DNA from: Methylophilaceae bacterium
GTDB lineage: Bacteria > Pseudomonadota > Gammaproteobacteria > Burkholderiales > Methylophilaceae
Length of the DNA stretch: 64,000 bases
NCBI GenBank assembly: GCA_014378915.1
Contig: JACMMS010000054.1
Span: forward strand, 1 to 64,000
Direction of reading: 5' to 3'
The position numbers and the translations under genes were made by a program. Positions 34,332 to 41,934 of the stretch are shown here, piece by piece. How positions within the stretch are numbered: the stretch's first letter is position 1; each line of letters begins with the position of its first letter. Under the pieces are notes generated by a model. The model was given only the letters and a program-made list of their open reading frames with translations, did not search any database and had not been told where the DNA came from.

Positions 34332-35546
34332 TTATTTGCCCCTGAATGACAACCAATCTTGGTGGACTACTTTGGCATATTTTGTTGCATAGTCGAGTAA
34401 ATCTTTGCGCCATTGTTGAGGTTGCTCTGCAAATTGAATGAGCTGGTCTGCAATCGCCGAACCTTGGCGGCCGCTACTACGTAATTGTGCCCATGCGACG
34501 ATTTCACCCATGCTTTTAATGACTTCTTGTAATGGCTTAACTTTGCCATCGGCTAAGTTCAGGCTTAAACGATCTTGAGTAGGGTGCAACTCTCTGAGTA
34601 CATATGATTTATCATCGATATTAACAGCACTTAAAAATGCGGGTGATACCGCTTGCAAACGACGTTGTGTAGTCACAACGCGTTCTGCTTCAGAAGCCCA
34701 GCTAGGCTGTTTTATGGGTTTGTTTAATGCGCTGATAGTAGGTTTTAAAGCAGATGGTCCACAAAGTTTAAGGTCTAGTAAGTAGTAGTTATCTTTGACT
34801 TTTTTACTATTGCCAACCACTAAAATGACATAGCGCTCCATACCTAAACTGCCAATGCCTGCTATACGTCTTCCTATATCTAGTACTTTAAAAAACTCTG
34901 AATTTGTTTGTTGGTTTGCAAATTCGAGCATAAATGCAGTAACTCTAGCTTTAGCCTCTTTTGAAGCGGGTAGAGTTTTACCGTCATTCAATGTGAGCAA
35001 ACGGTTACCTTTTTCTACAAAGGTTCGACTTTTTATAAATTCGATACGAGAGCGTTTTTTTAGGCTCATGAGTAATTGCCTTATCATGCCTGTGGAGGTT
35101 GAGCGCTCTATCCAGTAGGCCTCGCCAGCTTTTAATGTATTGATATAAAAATCTAAAAACGTATCACATAAAGCTAATGCTTGTTTCTGACTAAGTCTAA
35201 GGGTTTCTGCGCCAACAACAACGCTGACTAAAAATCGGGCTAGCTCCCATGTGCATGGTGCAAGCGCGGCCTCATCGCAGTCATTTAAATCAAAATAACT
35301 TAGCCGGTTACTGCCTTTGTAAGTGCCAAAATTTTCTAAGTGACAATCACCTAAAATCCAGGTGTGCGGTGCTTCTGTAAATAGGGGTATTTGCGGTAAA
35401 TCTTCATAAAATAAATGGCAAGTACCGCGATAAAAACTAAACTCATTATCTTGAATGGCTTTGTATTTGAACGCTAAGATCTCATGGTCGCGCCCATGGT
35501 TGTAAGCATTGATGCGTTGTTTAACGGGTAAATTAGTCATAATCAT
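34332..35546 (-). CDS. DUF2252 family protein (kinase-like fold)
   Basis: This 404-aa cytosolic protein has the DUF2252 signature: FSFYRGTCHLFYEDL, then HTWILGDCHLENFGTYKG and LSYFDLNDCDEAALAPCTWE. These resemble the catalytic HxD-N and DxD-type metal motifs of protein-kinase-like/aminoglycoside phosphotransferase folds. A later block has YYLLDLKLCGPSALKP and AWAQLRSSGRQGS. Family function is not established. It lies 59 bp upstream of the YcaO frame on the same strand; a shared transcript is possible. Confidence 0.88.
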   Translation of the reverse strand: MIMTNLPVKQRINAYNHGRDHEILAFKYKAIQDNEFSFYRGTCHLFYEDLPQIPLFTEAPHTWILGDCHLENFGTYKGSNRLSYFDLNDCDEAALAPCTWELARFLVSVVVGAETLRLSQKQALALCDTFLDFYINTLKAGEAYWIERSTSTGMIRQLLMSLKKRSRIEFIKSRTFVEKGNRLLTLNDGKTLPASKEAKARVTAFMLEFANQQTNSEFFKVLDIGRRIAGIGSLGMERYVILVVGNSKKVKDNYYLLDLKLCGPSALKPTISALNKPIKQPSWASEAERVVTTQRRLQAVSPAFLSAVNIDDKSYVLRELHPTQDRLSLNLADGKVKPLQEVIKSMGEIVAWAQLRSSGRQGSAIADQLIQFAEQPQQWRKDLLDYATKYAKVVHQDWLSFRGK

Positions 35547-35639
35547 TACATTTTATCAGCCAAAACTCAGCTTAAACCAACCCATGAAACTAGTTTGTGA
35601 ATATCTTATGACAAAATTAATTGATTATTGAATGAGCGC

Positions 35640-36644
35640 TTAAATTAATAACATCAACTTGAGCTCGGCTTTGATATAGGCGTAAATAATCGGGGCTAAT
35701 AGTAAGCCGCCCACACCAAATAGAGATTCCATGAGCAGCATAGCGAGCAATATTTCCCAAGCCTTAGCATTGATTCTATCCCCCACAATGCGGGCATTAA
35801 TAAAATACTCTAATTTATGCACTAAAATTAGAAACACTAAAGCACTCAGCGCTACGTGAAAAGACACACCCAATGCCACTAATGTAATAGCTGTGTTTGA
35901 AATTAAATTTCCCACTACGGGTAAGAGCCCTACAATAAATGTCATGAGTATCAAGGTTTTTGTATAAGGTAAATGCACGCTAGCTAGCGGGAGTATGACA
36001 AATAAAAATAGCGCTGTTAGTGTGGTATTAATGGCTGAAATTTTTGCTTGTGCAAACACCACATTTTCAAATGCAATGCCTAATAATGTTAAGCGTTCGC
36101 GCAATTCAAATGCAAGCGGTCTGGTTTGGGGTTTTGGTAAGAAGCGTTGAATTGAAACCATTACAGCAATGGCAATGGCAATGAGGATATGCGCTAATGT
36201 ATGCAAGCTTTCACCCCCTACCTTACCTAATTCTTGGCTATGTTCCCTCAAAAAATCAGTGAGTGATTCTTTAAACCCAATAATACTTTCTGGAATATAA
36301 CTGACTAAAAGCGGCGGCAGTTTTTCGCGCATATCAGTGAGAATTTCTACAATTTTATTAGTAAGACCAATGAGGTTTTCTTGGCTGCCTAAGGTTTTAG
36401 ATAAAAACAGAGTGAGTAAGGTAATGATGGTAACGATGCCGATTAATACCATTAATCCAGCCATTAAGCGCGATTTTCGAGCAGATAAACGTCTATTTAA
36501 AAATACGCCTAAGTGCTTGGTCAGTAAATAAATAATCAGCCCAATAAAAGCTGGAGCAACTAGTTTAAGCATCAATGTGGCTAAAAATAAGCCAGATATG
36601 ATACACAAGCTAACTATTTTTACTTTACTAAGTGTGGTGTTCAT
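35640..36644 (-). CDS. AI-2E family transporter (PerM-like membrane protein)
   Basis: The protein is about 334 aa with about seven TM segments in the AI-2E/PerM pattern: paired N-terminal helices, a soluble loop rich in charged residues (about 90-150), then four to five helices. FIVGLLPVVGNLISNTAITL is the conserved family motif. The ATG at 36644 is chosen over 36671 because it starts with a short charged stretch and a TM. Substrates differ between family members (autoinducer export, Na+/H+ exchange), so the role is open. Confidence 0.88.
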   Translation of the reverse strand: MNTTLSKVKIVSLCIISGLFLATLMLKLVAPAFIGLIIYLLTKHLGVFLNRRLSARKSRLMAGLMVLIGIVTIITLLTLFLSKTLGSQENLIGLTNKIVEILTDMREKLPPLLVSYIPESIIGFKESLTDFLREHSQELGKVGGESLHTLAHILIAIAIAVMVSIQRFLPKPQTRPLAFELRERLTLLGIAFENVVFAQAKISAINTTLTALFLFVILPLASVHLPYTKTLILMTFIVGLLPVVGNLISNTAITLVALGVSFHVALSALVFLILVHKLEYFINARIVGDRINAKAWEILLAMLLMESLFGVGGLLLAPIIYAYIKAELKLMLLI

Positions 36645-36719
36645 GGCCGTTACTATAACAATATTATGCAAGGCTGACAGTTTAAATTAACTGGGTTTGC
36701 ATATTTAACTGCAACTACT

Positions 36720-39098
36720 TTAAGCTGCATTTTTTTCTTGGCTTACCTTCCAATTGTTTAACCAGCTTACAAATTTATCACCGGGCATGGGCCTGCTAAT
36801 AAAATAACCTTGGCCAAAGTCACAACCCAAATATTTAAGCAAGTCCCACGCCTCCATATTTTCAATGCCTTCTGCCACTACTTTTAAATTGAAGTTATGT
36901 GCCAAATCAATAGTAGAACGCACAATTTTAATATCATCACGATCTTGGCTCATGTTCAGTACAAATGACTTGTCGATTTTAAGCTCATCTACAGGTAGTT
37001 TTTTCAAATAAGCTAAGGATGAATATCCTGTACCAAAGTCATCAATCGATAGTTTAAACCCCATTTTTGATAGCTCTTCTAGCGTTTCTAGAGCACGTAA
37101 TGGATCTTCCATAATTGTGCCTTCAGTAATTTCTAAGGTAAGTGCATCAGTATTCAAATGATGGGTTTTTAATATACTAGCTATTTTATTGGGTAAATTT
37201 TGGTCAATTAAATCACGAGTTGATAAATTGACTGCAATTGGTAAAAAAATGCCCTGTGCTTGCCAATGTGCGCTGTATCCCGCCGCAAGATTCAACATCA
37301 ACATGCTAATTTTTTGTATATACCCAGTTTGCTCAGCAAACGGAATAAACTGATCTGGGAAAATGAAACCCTTTTCAGGGTGTAGCCATCTGATCAATGC
37401 CTCAACTGAACATACTTCACCTGTTCCTAAATTAACTTTAGGTTGTACAAATAGCTGAAAATGGTGTTCTGCAATCGCGTGCTTTAAATCAGACGCTAAG
37501 GACAAGTTAACTTTACTCGTTACATCAAATTGAGGTTCAAATATCACGATGCCAGATTGTTTAGTTTTAGCAATGTGCATCGCAATTTCTGCATGCGCTA
37601 AAAGTTGCTCATAATTTTCAGCGTGGTCTGGGTAACTAGCCACACCAATGCTGGCCGTAATATCTACAAGCTGCTCAGCGACTTCAACGGGTGATTCTAA
37701 ATATTTTACTAAGTTGTTGACTATTTTAAGCATGAGCTCATGGCTGGTTTTAGTGAGTATTATAGCAAACTCATCTCCACCTAAACGCGCTACATGGCTC
37801 TGTGATATGGGTGAGTAAGGGTTGCTTGCCGATGTTTCAATTCGCCTTGCTACAATGCGTAAAATTTCATTGGCAACGCCATGACCAAGCACATTGTTGA
37901 TTTGTTTAAACCGGTCTAGATTCATCACAATAACAATGACTGGTTCATGCCCTGACTCTTCAATCAATAATTTTATTTGTTGCATAAAAGCAGCCCGATT
38001 AGGCAATTGCGTCATTTCATCCCAGTAGGCGAGTTTGAGTATACTTTTTTCGCGGCTAGATATCGCTTCACTCATGCTATTAAATGCACGGCCTAATTTA
38101 CCAATTTCATCAATACGTTTACTTTCAATAGCAATGTTGTAATCACCATTTTCGAGTTTTTTAGCTTTGTCTGCTAGCTCAGCAATTGGTAGGCTAATAC
38201 GTTTAGCCACATAAAAAATAGCGGCAGAGAATATCAATGCACCAATCAAGGTGAGTATAAATAAGTTTTTTTCTAGCGTTTTATAAGGTTGCATTGCCAT
38301 GTCGATAGAACTTTGAAGCTCTACAGAAAGCGATTGATGACCATCACTAAAAATGGGTACGATTCTTGTACCAAAAGCAGCGTTGCCAATTTTAACCTCA
38401 CTAACTTTAACTTCACTGTTGAATGCTTTAGCGACCAGACCAGACTGACTAACACTTAACTCTGATTCACCTTTAAGAACCCGATTGCCAAGCTTAATCT
38501 TGTCTTCAGCCTTGCTAATGAAAGTAACTTCGAGATTAGTTAATTTATTAAGCTTTTTTGCCAGTGCACTATCAATTTCAAATCCCATGACAATCCAGCC
38601 AATGGTAAGTGGTGCTTTGACAGGAACAGCCACTAATTGGTAAGTTCTTGAACTGATGATTCTAAATTGTCTGCCATCACCGTTTGCTTGCGTATTTTTG
38701 ATAAGGCTTGCTAGTTCTGATGTCGCCTCTTCTTTAGAAACATTGCCAGCGGTTACTATGTTGTCTCCAGTTGGTGAGCAATACATTGCAATACTGGCAC
38801 CAATTCTACCTTGATGATTCTCGAGGGCGGATAAAATCGTCCCGCTATCATTACTGCCAATTGCTTGCCTAAAGCCATAATCAGTGGCTAAAATTCTGGC
38901 GCCTTGGGTTAAATTTTCTCCATTTTGCTCTAGTAAATTTAGAAAGATTTTTTCGCCAATTTCCAAACTGGTATTTACTGAGGCACGTGCATTCTTTTGA
39001 ATACTTGAGCGAATAGCTAACGAACCAATGATTTGAATCACAAGAATGAGTGTTAAAAAAATAAACGCAATACGGCTTTTTAAACTTTTAAATTGCAT
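36720..39098 (-). CDS. Membrane GGDEF-EAL protein with double-Cache-like sensor and HAMP
   Basis: This 792-aa protein is a cyclic-di-GMP synthesis/degradation hybrid. TM1 is at about 9-30, a periplasmic double-Cache-type sensor at about 35-275, TM2 at about 280-300 (LFILTLIGALIFSAAIFYVA) and HAMP follows. The GGDEF domain has an intact active site (HVARLGGDEFAIIL). The EAL domain reads VEALIRWLHPEKG and SIDDFGTGYSSLAYLKKLPV, so both activities may be present. It starts 11 bp downstream of the cupredoxin-like gene on the same strand, and is the last gene of a globin-cupredoxin-GGDEF/EAL unit. Confidence 0.93.
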   Translation of the reverse strand: MQFKSLKSRIAFIFLTLILVIQIIGSLAIRSSIQKNARASVNTSLEIGEKIFLNLLEQNGENLTQGARILATDYGFRQAIGSNDSGTILSALENHQGRIGASIAMYCSPTGDNIVTAGNVSKEEATSELASLIKNTQANGDGRQFRIISSRTYQLVAVPVKAPLTIGWIVMGFEIDSALAKKLNKLTNLEVTFISKAEDKIKLGNRVLKGESELSVSQSGLVAKAFNSEVKVSEVKIGNAAFGTRIVPIFSDGHQSLSVELQSSIDMAMQPYKTLEKNLFILTLIGALIFSAAIFYVAKRISLPIAELADKAKKLENGDYNIAIESKRIDEIGKLGRAFNSMSEAISSREKSILKLAYWDEMTQLPNRAAFMQQIKLLIEESGHEPVIVIVMNLDRFKQINNVLGHGVANEILRIVARRIETSASNPYSPISQSHVARLGGDEFAIILTKTSHELMLKIVNNLVKYLESPVEVAEQLVDITASIGVASYPDHAENYEQLLAHAEIAMHIAKTKQSGIVIFEPQFDVTSKVNLSLASDLKHAIAEHHFQLFVQPKVNLGTGEVCSVEALIRWLHPEKGFIFPDQFIPFAEQTGYIQKISMLMLNLAAGYSAHWQAQGIFLPIAVNLSTRDLIDQNLPNKIASILKTHHLNTDALTLEITEGTIMEDPLRALETLEELSKMGFKLSIDDFGTGYSSLAYLKKLPVDELKIDKSFVLNMSQDRDDIKIVRSTIDLAHNFNLKVVAEGIENMEAWDLLKYLGCDFGQGYFISRPMPGDKFVSWLNNWKVSQEKNAA

Positions 39099-39109
39099 AA
39101 TTAAGCATG

Positions 39110-39781
39110 TTATTTTGAGATGAGCGCTTGAGGATTAATATCAAGTTTAACGGTTTGTTTATCTGAACCTTTAATCGTTAAAAACTGTTCTGCCACGACA
39201 TTTTCTTTAACTAAAGCATAGTGCCAAATTTTTAATGCGTATTGTGCATTTGGCAAGTCTTTAAAAGTGAATTTACCTGATGCATCAGTTTTGCCAAAGT
39301 AAGGCGTATTAACCACTTGTATAAAAGCAATCATTTTGTCATGAATATTACAGCCTAATACCACGGTGCCTTCCTTATCGAATAACACCGGTGCGGCAGT
39401 AACACCAGAATATAATTTTAATTCAAAAGTTTTTGCTGGTGAAAATGAATAGACATGGTGGCGTACTGTATCGTTGTTAGGAAAAGTCACCCTTGCCCCA
39501 GCTTGCACAACAGATATCAAAGGTAGAAATTTTTTACCTTTTTGTTCGACTGCTAGAGTCGCCAACATGTTTGGAGGTTGTTTAGAGGTAGGTTCTGCAT
39601 ATACCACCGCATTCTCTAAGGGTTGCCCTAAGTTATCAATAACCAGTACGCTCAGCTCCCCAGCGCTAGCAAATCCACATACAGTCATTAATACGAAAAA
39701 AATAATACCTGTGTTTGAGTTTTTCAATTTTAGGTTCCCAAATTTGTATTGAATTAGATTTTTTTTAATGGGAAGAGTCAT
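39110..39781 (-). CDS. Exported cupredoxin-like 'methylamine utilization protein'
   Basis: This 223-aa protein has a signal peptide ending FASA|GELS (about residue 40). It resembles MauL/plastocyanin-like proteins: FPNNDTVRHHVYSFSPAKTF with His108/His109, and VVLGCNIHDKMIAF with Cys144, His147 and Met150. This gives a plausible type-1 copper site (His-Cys-His-Met). A C-terminal carboxypeptidase-regulatory-like beta domain follows (GKTDASGKFTFKDLPNAQYA). The ATG overlaps the globin stop as TGATG, so the two are coupled. No mau genes are nearby, so a methylamine role is not implied. Confidence 0.85.
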   Translation of the reverse strand: MTLPIKKNLIQYKFGNLKLKNSNTGIIFFVLMTVCGFASAGELSVLVIDNLGQPLENAVVYAEPTSKQPPNMLATLAVEQKGKKFLPLISVVQAGARVTFPNNDTVRHHVYSFSPAKTFELKLYSGVTAAPVLFDKEGTVVLGCNIHDKMIAFIQVVNTPYFGKTDASGKFTFKDLPNAQYALKIWHYALVKENVVAEQFLTIKGSDKQTVKLDINPQALISK

Positions 39782-40221
39782 CAATTGGTGACCACATCAT
39801 GTTTCATTGGAGCTAGTAGCTTAAGTAGTTCATTTTTTTCGCGCGTATTAACATGTCGATTTAACGCATCCCGCAGTGCTTGTACAAGCAGCTCAAACTC
39901 TGCAGTGCTAATTTTTAAGTCAGCATGCGATTTTTTCATGCTCTCACCTTCATAAATACAATCTCCACCCGTTATTACACAAAACTGATTAGTAATACTG
40001 GCTTTTAGTGTGCTGATTTTTGTATCTGCAAATGAGCGCTTGGTTTTTGGATTAGCAATCACTTCATCAACGGTTTCAGATACGACTATGGTGAGTACAG
40101 GCTTACCGCCTATGCGCTCATACAGTGTTTTTTCTTCGGCACTATAAGCTCGTGCATTCAGACATGCTCCTATTAAAACGATAGTAAACAAGATATTCAA
40201 TAATGGTATGAATTTTTTCAT
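39781..40221 (-). CDS. Exported group 1 truncated haemoglobin
   Basis: This is a 146-aa protein. Residues 1-27 are a signal peptide; LIGAC could serve as a lipobox (Cys20). The remaining ~120 residues are a truncated-globin domain: LYERIGGKPVLTIVVSETV at the start, SFADTKISTLKASITNQFC, GGDCIYEGESMKKSHADLKI with the likely proximal haem His, and a C-terminal helix ending LLKLLAPMKHDV. Group 1 globins bind O2 or NO. Export to the periplasm is unusual for the family but seen in proteins annotated next to DUF3034. It heads the unit leading to the cupredoxin and GGDEF-EAL genes. Confidence 0.88.
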   Translation of the reverse strand: MKKFIPLLNILFTIVLIGACLNARAYSAEEKTLYERIGGKPVLTIVVSETVDEVIANPKTKRSFADTKISTLKASITNQFCVITGGDCIYEGESMKKSHADLKISTAEFELLVQALRDALNRHVNTREKNELLKLLAPMKHDVVTN

Positions 40222-40428
40222 TTTTTTTGGGCTCTTGACTGTATTTTTGTAGAGAATCGATGATATAAATTAATTTCATAAAATCATCCAATAATGAGCT
40301 GTTAAAGAGCACCTTATATCTGGCTATTGGTTTTTTATTTTAAATTTATACTAATTAATGCTTATGTTTAATTACTTCAAAGCTTTCAATGTGAGCATTA
40401 TTTCAAATTATATTAGGACAGTTTTAGG

Positions 40429-41304
40429 ATGGCATACGTAAAATCATTTTTGCTAAATGTTTCATTTTTCGTAGTTTGCTTTACAATATTTTTTTCTGAG
40501 GCACTGGCTGGCGATCGGCTACTCGCGACAGGCGGCGTGACGCAAATTGAGGGCGTAGCAGGCGGAGGCTTGGTGCCGTGGGCACTCATAAGCGGTTACG
40601 GTACCGATAAGCAGGTGGGTGGTTCATTGTTTTACACAGTAGCAAAAACTCAAGGTGGATTTACTGCAGATACTGGGGGCTTCAACGTAGGTGTGATGAA
40701 TCGCGTAGAGTTTTCGTTTGCACAAGTGAAGTTTGGGCTCAGTAACGCCGTTCCTGGGCAATCTATAAAACTGGATACTGTTGGCATTAAATTAAGGCTA
40801 ACAGGCGATGCTGTTTATGATCAAGATGCTCGGCTACCGCAAGTGGCTGCTGGCGTACTAATTAAGCATAATGAAGATTTTAACTTTGTACCTAAAGCTA
40901 TAGGCGCAGAACATCCTAGTGGCGTCGATTACTATGTAGCGGCGACTAAGCTATATTTGGCGGCTGTTGCAGGTAGAAATCTCTTGCTTAACGTCACCCT
41001 AAATGCAACCAAAGCCAATCAATTTGGTATTTTAGGCTTTGGTGGTGATAAGCATAATAACTACACCCTGCAACCTGCTTTTTCTGCTGGCTTAATGTTG
41101 ACTGACAAAGTGATAGTGGGTGCGGAATATCGAGCAAAACCCAATAACGTGAGCGTGTTTAGAGAACAAGCTGCAAAAGATGTTTATCTTGCTTGGTTTC
41201 TGGTCAAAAACTTATCGTTAACAGGCGCATATGTAGATTTGGGTAATATCGCTAATAAAGAAAATCAGCATGGATGGTATTTTTCTGGACAGATTTTATA
41301 TTAA
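40429..41304 (+). CDS. DUF3034 family exported beta-rich protein
   Basis: This 291-aa protein has a signal peptide ending EALA|GDRLL. The mature part matches DUF3034: LLATGGVTQIEGVAGGGLVP, WALISGYGTDKQVGGSLFYT and RVEFSFAQVKFGL. The C-terminal strands end FSGQILY, an outer-membrane-like terminal aromatic. Alternating amphipathic strands suggest an outer-membrane beta-barrel (inference). It is divergent from the globin gene over a 207-bp AT-rich gap, so the two may share regulation. Function is not established. Confidence 0.85.
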   Translation: MAYVKSFLLNVSFFVVCFTIFFSEALAGDRLLATGGVTQIEGVAGGGLVPWALISGYGTDKQVGGSLFYTVAKTQGGFTADTGGFNVGVMNRVEFSFAQVKFGLSNAVPGQSIKLDTVGIKLRLTGDAVYDQDARLPQVAAGVLIKHNEDFNFVPKAIGAEHPSGVDYYVAATKLYLAAVAGRNLLLNVTLNATKANQFGILGFGGDKHNNYTLQPAFSAGLMLTDKVIVGAEYRAKPNNVSVFREQAAKDVYLAWFLVKNLSLTGAYVDLGNIANKENQHGWYFSGQILY

Positions 41305-41373: not shown

Positions 41374-41722
41374 GAAGCTAGCTAGACAGTCGCCGCGCAG
41401 TGCAATCTGCGGGGAGGAAAGTCCGGGCTGCACAGAGCAGGATGACGGCTAACGGCCGTACGCTGAAATTTGAATGGCGCAAGCCAGTCATTATAAGGTG
41501 AGGAATAGGGCCACAGAGACGAGCGTATTTAGTTACGGTGAAACGCGGTAACCTCCATCCGCAGCAAGACCAAATAGGCTGGCATTTTGTCTTTACTGAC
41601 AATAGGGCGTTGCTCGCGCTGCCAGCGGGTAGGTTGCTTGAGCGCATGAGCAATCATGCGCCTAGATGAATGACTGTCACCACAGTAATGTGTACACAGA
41701 ACCCGGCTTATCGGCTAGCTTC
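41374..41722 (+). ncRNA. rnpB: RNase P RNA, bacterial class A
   Basis: This is the catalytic RNA of RNase P, which matures tRNA 5' ends. The ends pair: GAAGCTAGC (41374-41382) with GCTAGCTTC (41714-41722). The diagnostic core is present: GAGGAAAGTCCGGGCT early (about 41414), AGGGCCACAGAGACGA and GGTGAAACGCGGTAACCTCC in the middle, and GTACACAGAACCCGGCTTATCGG near the 3' end are the conserved P4 and specificity-domain sequences. About 349 nt is normal. It lies between DUF3034 and the dcw cluster. Confidence 0.95.
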
Positions 41723-41934
41723 AATTTAATCCTCATTAATATCAAAAAATCACCCTTTTATGCGCCTAAATTATATTAACAATGACTCAAAAGTGGTGAA
41801 CAACACATTATCAAACACCTCCATCATTTGTCTAATATTTCACTTTCACACAGTTACGTATCTATCTAATTTTTAAGGGTTTTATTTTAATCAACAAAAT
41901 GCGCTAAGTCATTGAGCTATAAAGAAAAAATACT
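41723..41934 (+). other. AT-rich spacer between rnpB and the dcw regulatory region
   Basis: No open frame with a plausible start, tRNA or repeat was seen here. It is AT-rich. The region that follows, to the mraZ start at 42154, holds the terminator, promoter, repeat and hairpin listed separately. Confidence 0.6.

Follow-up and report, generated by a model that had tools for sequence, protein, structure and literature searches.

In Pseudomonas, the YfiBNR (TpbB) system controls cyclic diguanosine monophosphate (c-di-GMP) through outer-membrane, periplasmic, and inner-membrane parts encoded in one operon: an OmpA-like lipoprotein (YfiB), a non-metal protein (YfiR), and a cyclase (YfiN). Here, we analyzed a four-gene locus in a 64,000-nucleotide stretch (hereafter, the window) of contig JACMMS010000054.1 from a Methylophilaceae bacterium (assembly GCA_014378915.1), which encodes a DUF3034 protein, an exported globin, a cupredoxin, and a transmembrane c-di-GMP enzyme with a periplasmic sensor (the receptor). 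The tripartite envelope layout of this locus is like that of YfiBNR, but the parts are different. HmsC-HmsD of Yersinia pestis is comparable: its c-di-GMP enzyme lies in the inner membrane and is controlled at its periplasmic domain by a partner that is exported, soluble, and sensitive to redox state (PMC8846402); however, HmsC is a cysteine (periplasmic thiol) protein and not a globin or cupredoxin, HmsD is a diguanylate cyclase, and the system has no barrel. The PdeC-type CSS-domain phosphodiesterases of E. coli are likewise transmembrane EAL enzymes under periplasmic redox control (PMC8846402), but their switch is a disulphide within the enzyme, without partner metalloproteins. Haem proteins are tied to c-di-GMP turnover in the globin-coupled sensors (DgcO) and DosP (PMC8846402); in these, the haem domain is fused and cytoplasmic, whereas the window globin is a separate protein predicted to be exported.

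Periplasmic redox control of c-di-GMP enzymes is already established for HmsCD and PdeC (PMC8846402). In the same review of c-di-GMP sensing, the words “copper” and “cupredoxin” are absent and the globin sensors are fused domains. In the openly accessible full-text literature, a scope that leaves out most subscription journals, we found no account of the four-gene set, in agreement with an earlier reading of the window's letters (the original prediction) that knew of no described mechanism. The name DUF3034 is mentioned there in passing only, and a literature search for PSHAa0458, a possible studied relative, returned nothing. Pfam scans of the four window proteins turned up neither YfiR nor HmsC, and no search was aimed at either. 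Transmembrane c-di-GMP enzymes governed by exported proteins are thus a known principle; as far as that literature shows, this set of partners is new.

Our analysis suggests, with moderate confidence, that the four genes constitute one envelope-spanning signalling module, in which the globin and cupredoxin would read the redox or gas state and pass it via the dCache and HAMP domains to the EAL domain. As judged from sequence and predicted structure, its parts are an outer-membrane barrel, an exported haem globin, a type-1-copper cupredoxin, and a dCache receptor with an intact phosphodiesterase. The module reading is supported because the genes have been kept together through many rearrangements, because the copper ligands, the Cys pair and F8 histidine of the globin, and the EAL residues are essentially invariant, and because the output can change from EAL to a class III cyclase without loss of dCache or cupredoxin. 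The fold matches of the cupredoxin and barrel and the enrichment of sigma28 promoters upstream in some lineages also support it.

In the proposed mechanism, the globin would sit at or close to the outer membrane, anchored there together with the DUF3034 barrel, and serve as a haem/thiol front end: by binding or reacting with nitric oxide (NO), O2, or an oxidant, it would alter the cupredoxin or the receptor. The dCache domain would have the cupredoxin as its immediate partner in the periplasm, and the copper or redox state of the cupredoxin, transmitted through HAMP, would set EAL activity. The net effect would be a change in c-di-GMP, most likely a fall, e.g., favoring motility. We put forward only tentatively the possibility of a haem-and-copper periplasmic complex reaching from the outer to the inner membrane, in which exported globin and cupredoxin jointly gate c-di-GMP (cyclic AMP or cyclic GMP in variants); it would be the first envelope gas/redox sensor with a separate exported globin.

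The conservation survey covered 398 Pseudomonadota genomes and 37 genomes of the window's family; about 6 kb on either side of each DUF3034 gene were retrieved and annotated with profiles built for this analysis. DUF3034 was present in 39 of the 398 genomes, and in all 39 an exported globin lay within 270 bp of it, which rules out chance adjacency of the four genes. Globins scoring above 75 bits with our profile were found in just 9 of the 359 genomes without DUF3034. All four genes were at a single locus in 30 of the 39 genomes and somewhere in the genome in 36; the cupredoxin–receptor pair occupied another locus in five further genomes, and in one (G185) the receptor was at the DUF3034 locus and the cupredoxin elsewhere. 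In the window's family, the cupredoxin occurred in 8 of 37 genomes, each time next to the genes for DUF3034 and an exported globin and followed by that for the receptor; in one of the family's genomes (G011), the receptor is a convergent class III cyclase.

Writing D for DUF3034, G for globin, C for cupredoxin, S for receptor, and <-> for divergent genes, the main orders were C-S-D-G (34), D<->G-C-S (14), D-G-C-S (11), and G-D<->C-S (7). On the cupredoxin tree, a quick tree computed without a mixture model, the presence of DUF3034 changes at least 22 times and the gene order at least 5 times. Annotated plasmids of Caballeronia and Novosphingobium carry the four-gene set as a self-contained unit. 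The original prediction proposed a neighbourhood survey and made its reading depend on co-occurrence, which it noted for some betaproteobacteria; co-occurrence was found, and its range is wider, spanning Alpha-, Beta-, and Gammaproteobacteria and several gene orders. The proposal that a transmembrane c-di-GMP enzyme takes its input from secreted haem and copper proteins passes this test and is, overall, partly supported.

The receptor matched dCache_3 (PF14827, 57 bits; cut-off 25.7), HAMP (49 bits), EAL (PF00563, 236 bits), and GGDEF in Pfam. With dCache_3 predicted between two membrane segments and followed by HAMP, it is by sequence a dCache_3-type receptor, which gives the “Cache-like” sensor of the original prediction its family. 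The EAL residues E, N, E, DD, K, E, and Q were found in all receptors whose aligned sequences have a residue at the columns concerned (122–124 of 124). The [GSA]G[DE]EF motif, intact in the window, was kept in 85 of 124 and is degenerate in about a third. Because the EAL residues are essentially invariant while GGDEF is often degenerate, the main conserved enzymatic output is probably c-di-GMP hydrolysis. Of the predicted cyclase/phosphodiesterase, the phosphodiesterase side is thus conserved, but the GGDEF side is often degenerate and the output is occasionally a class III nucleotide cyclase.

Among 80 named cupredoxin loci, those most similar to the query, a dCache receptor lay directly behind the cupredoxin in 75 and nearby in 4 more; both DUF3034 and globin were also present in 29. 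In six loci, a class III nucleotide cyclase replaces GGDEF-EAL, with a dCache domain homologous to that of the window (phmmer E 1e-23 to 1e-30). Since cupredoxin and dCache persist across output swaps and without barrel or globin, we infer that the receptor receives its signal from the cupredoxin. The pair would be the signalling core, with cupredoxin and dCache constant and the outputs variable.

The Pfam scan of the window cupredoxin gave CarboxypepD_reg matches only, all below threshold. Its AlphaFold2 model, built from an alignment of 45 relatives, has a mean predicted local distance difference test score (pLDDT) of 93.8. Model residues about 31–118 match plastocyanin, amicyanin, and pseudoazurin (Z about 11–12), while the flanks 1–30 and 119–176 jointly match carboxypeptidase-regulatory/TTR-like domains. 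Because the central part and the joined flanks match different folds, the model identifies the product as a cupredoxin inserted in a TTR-like domain; the cupredoxin fold of the original prediction stands, and the insertion corrects it. The copper ligands H108, C144, H147, and M150 were present in 149 of 149 cupredoxins (a genome scan with a single-sequence query gave no matches, and an alignment-based query succeeded). By predicted fold and by its His-Cys-His-Met ligand set, the protein is a type-1 copper cupredoxin. Its C-x2-H-x2-M spacing is that of amicyanin, and a four-ligand type-1 site so spaced has electron-transfer geometry. It shares fold and ligands with amicyanin, pseudoazurin, and plastocyanin but differs from the amicyanin class in its insertion in a TTR/CarboxypepD_reg-like domain and in its constant neighbour, a dCache receptor and not a dehydrogenase. 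The public annotation of such proteins as “methylamine utilization protein” is probably a misnomer.

Other cupredoxin neighbourhoods were also seen. At five loci (L195, L196, L202, L204, and L206), the cupredoxin has no dCache receptor and adjoins a secreted protein of ~410 aa, probably a barrel, with no Pfam match. Next to distant cupredoxin relatives at L217:724-5329 and L219:4763-8672 are a dihaem protein of the MauG type and a large signalling protein in the membrane; at L217, the former is a peroxidase and the latter a hybrid histidine kinase that matches dCache weakly. By their sequences, such signalling proteins are a third output in neighbourhoods of this kind.

The window globin scored 48 bits against Bac_globin (PF01152; cut-off 21), and its best PDB sequence match is HbN (E 5e-11). 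Like HbN, it has the proximal F8 histidine (His99) and both GG motifs (38–39 and 85–86), which place it by sequence among the group 1 truncated haemoglobins (2/2 globins). Alignment with HbN and the residue table give a distal pocket of Val at B10 (not Tyr), Leu at E7, and Ile at E11. Across the 79 DUF3034-linked globins, C81, C88, and the F8 histidine were present in all; Tyr B10 was present in just 9, and E7 and E11 were always aliphatic or Phe. Unlike HbN, the linked globins are exported, carry an invariant Cys pair in the E-F region, and differ mostly at B10 and always at E11. We downgraded an NO-dioxygenase reading of the HbN type, as the window globin lacks Tyr B10 and Gln E11 and Tyr B10 is rare among its relatives. 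By sequence, the linked globins form a subclass that is exported, has an apolar distal pocket, and probably has a disulphide between Cys81 and Cys88, unlike NO-dioxygenating HbN.

Nearly all linked globins bear export signals, which are of the lipoprotein type in many gammaproteobacterial and Methylophilaceae-like members and of type I in those from Burkholderiales. Some globins not linked to DUF3034 have no signal at all. The window globin may be a lipoprotein, given its lipobox-like LIGAC motif. The view that a periplasmic truncated globin is unusual does not hold, since export is the rule within this subclass and cable bacteria offer a precedent: their periplasmic truncated globin domains are fused to multihaem cytochromes, and O2 reduction has been proposed for them (PMC11976967). 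Exported globins beside cupredoxin–receptor loci in Aquincola (L106:6559-6897) and Roseateles (L109:6594-6935) have lost the F8 histidine and kept both cysteines, and are possibly haem-free with a thiol role.

The DUF3034 protein matched PF11231 over its full length with 330 bits and so belongs to that family. Its AlphaFold2 model has 12 strands at pLDDT 79 and, together with the signal peptide, predicts an outer-membrane beta barrel, bearing out the “barrel-like” call of the original prediction. The model matches the FapF, KdgM, NanC, and COG4313 barrels at Z 17–19 (up to 19.4), generic matches of about 10% identity; the best, FapF, has just 10%. The barrel may anchor the globin or admit a ligand. 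In four genomes (G024, G002, G026, and G018; loci L038–L041), a second, longer DUF3034 paralogue lies directly beside another exported globin without cupredoxin or receptor, which suggests that DUF3034 and globin are a functional pair in their own right. In G138, a second DUF3034–globin copy (L189:5192-6368) is decaying, with both genes broken together.

Promoters of the sigma28 (FliA) type (TAAAGTTT-N11-GCCGATAA) were found upstream of the module in some lineages. At the Caballeronia locus L191, a perfect 16/16 site precedes the cupredoxin and a 14/16 site precedes DUF3034. Sites with at least 12 of 16 matches occurred in 15 of 191 upstream regions of first genes and 13 of 997 controls. This enrichment fits a motility-linked phosphodiesterase, as a lead only. 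FliA was present in 33 of 33 DUF3034 carriers among Beta- and Gammaproteobacteria, and in the window's family it was weakly associated with DUF3034 (9/10 versus 14/27, p 0.036); the association is also only a lead, because several alphaproteobacterial carriers lack FliA. For sites of the FNR, sigma54, CueR, NsrR, RpoE, and Fur types, matches upstream of the module did not convincingly exceed those in shuffled sequences. A 13/16 sigma28 match in the window at 39146, inside the 3' end of the cupredoxin gene, was not counted, being weak and in conserved coding sequence.

Several points weigh against the module reading. The sigma28 enrichment came from one of eight motifs tried and from related sequences, and a scan of the window's own promoter region showed no sigma28 site above background. 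The distal haem pocket varies among the linked globins (Tyr B10 in 9 of 79). The proposed contacts between the products, their metal and haem loading, and the effect on c-di-GMP are all predictions from sequence and modelled structure. Many cupredoxin–receptor loci (39 of the 80 named) lack barrel and globin, and paralogous DUF3034–globin pairs have neither cupredoxin nor receptor beside them in genomes of the window's family, among them G002 and G024, indicating that the two halves can work apart. They might then be two independent cassettes with roles of their own, brought together through shared regulation or transfer: each is found alone, and they occupy separate loci in the five DUF3034-positive genomes mentioned above. 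However, 36 of the 39 DUF3034 genomes also hold the other genes and the linkage has been re-formed in several gene orders, and we regard this explanation as quite unlikely.

The locus could also serve periplasmic redox chemistry or detoxification, with the cupredoxin donating electrons to a globin that turns over NO or O2/peroxide, the barrel admitting substrates, and the c-di-GMP enzyme merely co-regulated or sensing a by-product. The globin and the cupredoxin are both redox proteins whose metal ligands are invariant, the cable-bacterial domains have a proposed O2-reducing role (PMC11976967), and DUF3034–globin pairs without a receptor exist. We nevertheless consider this unlikely: the Tyr B10/Gln E11 pair of NO-dioxygenating HbN is missing in most members, the window included, and many cupredoxin–receptor pairs have no globin at all, which makes the receptor the constant partner of the cupredoxin. 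A role in copper (or haem) handling, with barrel and cupredoxin taking up or buffering copper and the receptor signalling its availability, would suit the complete type-1 copper site, and the copper-related PcoB is among the fold matches of DUF3034. Yet PcoB is one of many generic barrel matches, a type-1 site is built for electron transfer and is not a typical chaperone site, and the loci examined share no recurrent gene for moving copper in or out; this explanation seems highly improbable.

If the module reading is correct, it would provide a function for DUF3034, for exported truncated globins, and for a class of “methylamine utilization” proteins, and single-gene deletions would directly address how the gas, copper, or redox state of the envelope reaches c-di-GMP. 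The DUF3034–globin unit occurs in about a tenth of our broad Pseudomonadota sample, usually with the copper protein and the phosphodiesterase.

The minus-strand gene trio and divergent DUF3034 gene of the original prediction were all confirmed as open reading frames (Table 1), and Pfam scans upheld its family calls for the globin, receptor, and DUF3034.

Table 1. Features of the four-gene locus, in window positions.
Feature	Position	Strand	Evidence
DUF3034 protein: signal peptide and predicted 12-stranded outer-membrane beta barrel	40429..41304	+	PF11231, AlphaFold2 model, fold matches
Divergent intergenic region between DUF3034 and the globin operon	40222..40428	.	Sequence; without above-background sigma28 site
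Exported group 1 truncated globin (predicted); LIGAC, Cys81/Cys88, His99 (F8), aliphatic B10/E7/E11	39781..40221	-	PF01152, HbN alignment, residue table, signal peptides of relatives
Exported cupredoxin (predicted), 223 aa, inserted in CarboxypepD_reg/TTR-like domain; H108, C144, H147, M150 (ATG numbering)	39110..39781	-	AlphaFold2 model, fold matches, invariant ligands
Inner-membrane dCache-HAMP-GGDEF-EAL receptor (predicted)	36720..39098	-	Pfam, alignment, motif tables
Periplasmic dCache_3-type sensor region (predicted), about residues 39-275 of receptor	38274..38984	-	PF14827 residues 39-196; common to class III cyclase receptors
GGDEF domain of receptor, window motif intact (GGDEF)	37557..38030	-	Pfam, motif table
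EAL phosphodiesterase domain of receptor, catalytic residues intact	36789..37490	-	Pfam, motif table

The cupredoxin ATG overlaps the globin stop codon (TGATG); translation might alternatively begin at a TTG one codon earlier. Just 3' of DUF3034, the window carries a bacterial class A RNase P RNA (41374-41726, plus strand); a mechanically called minus-strand frame of 91 aa (41378-41653) overlaps this RNA and is not a gene. The minus strand at 34332-36671, downstream of the receptor gene, encodes a DUF2252 protein and an AI-2E-family permease; neither gene was seen again among the related loci listed.

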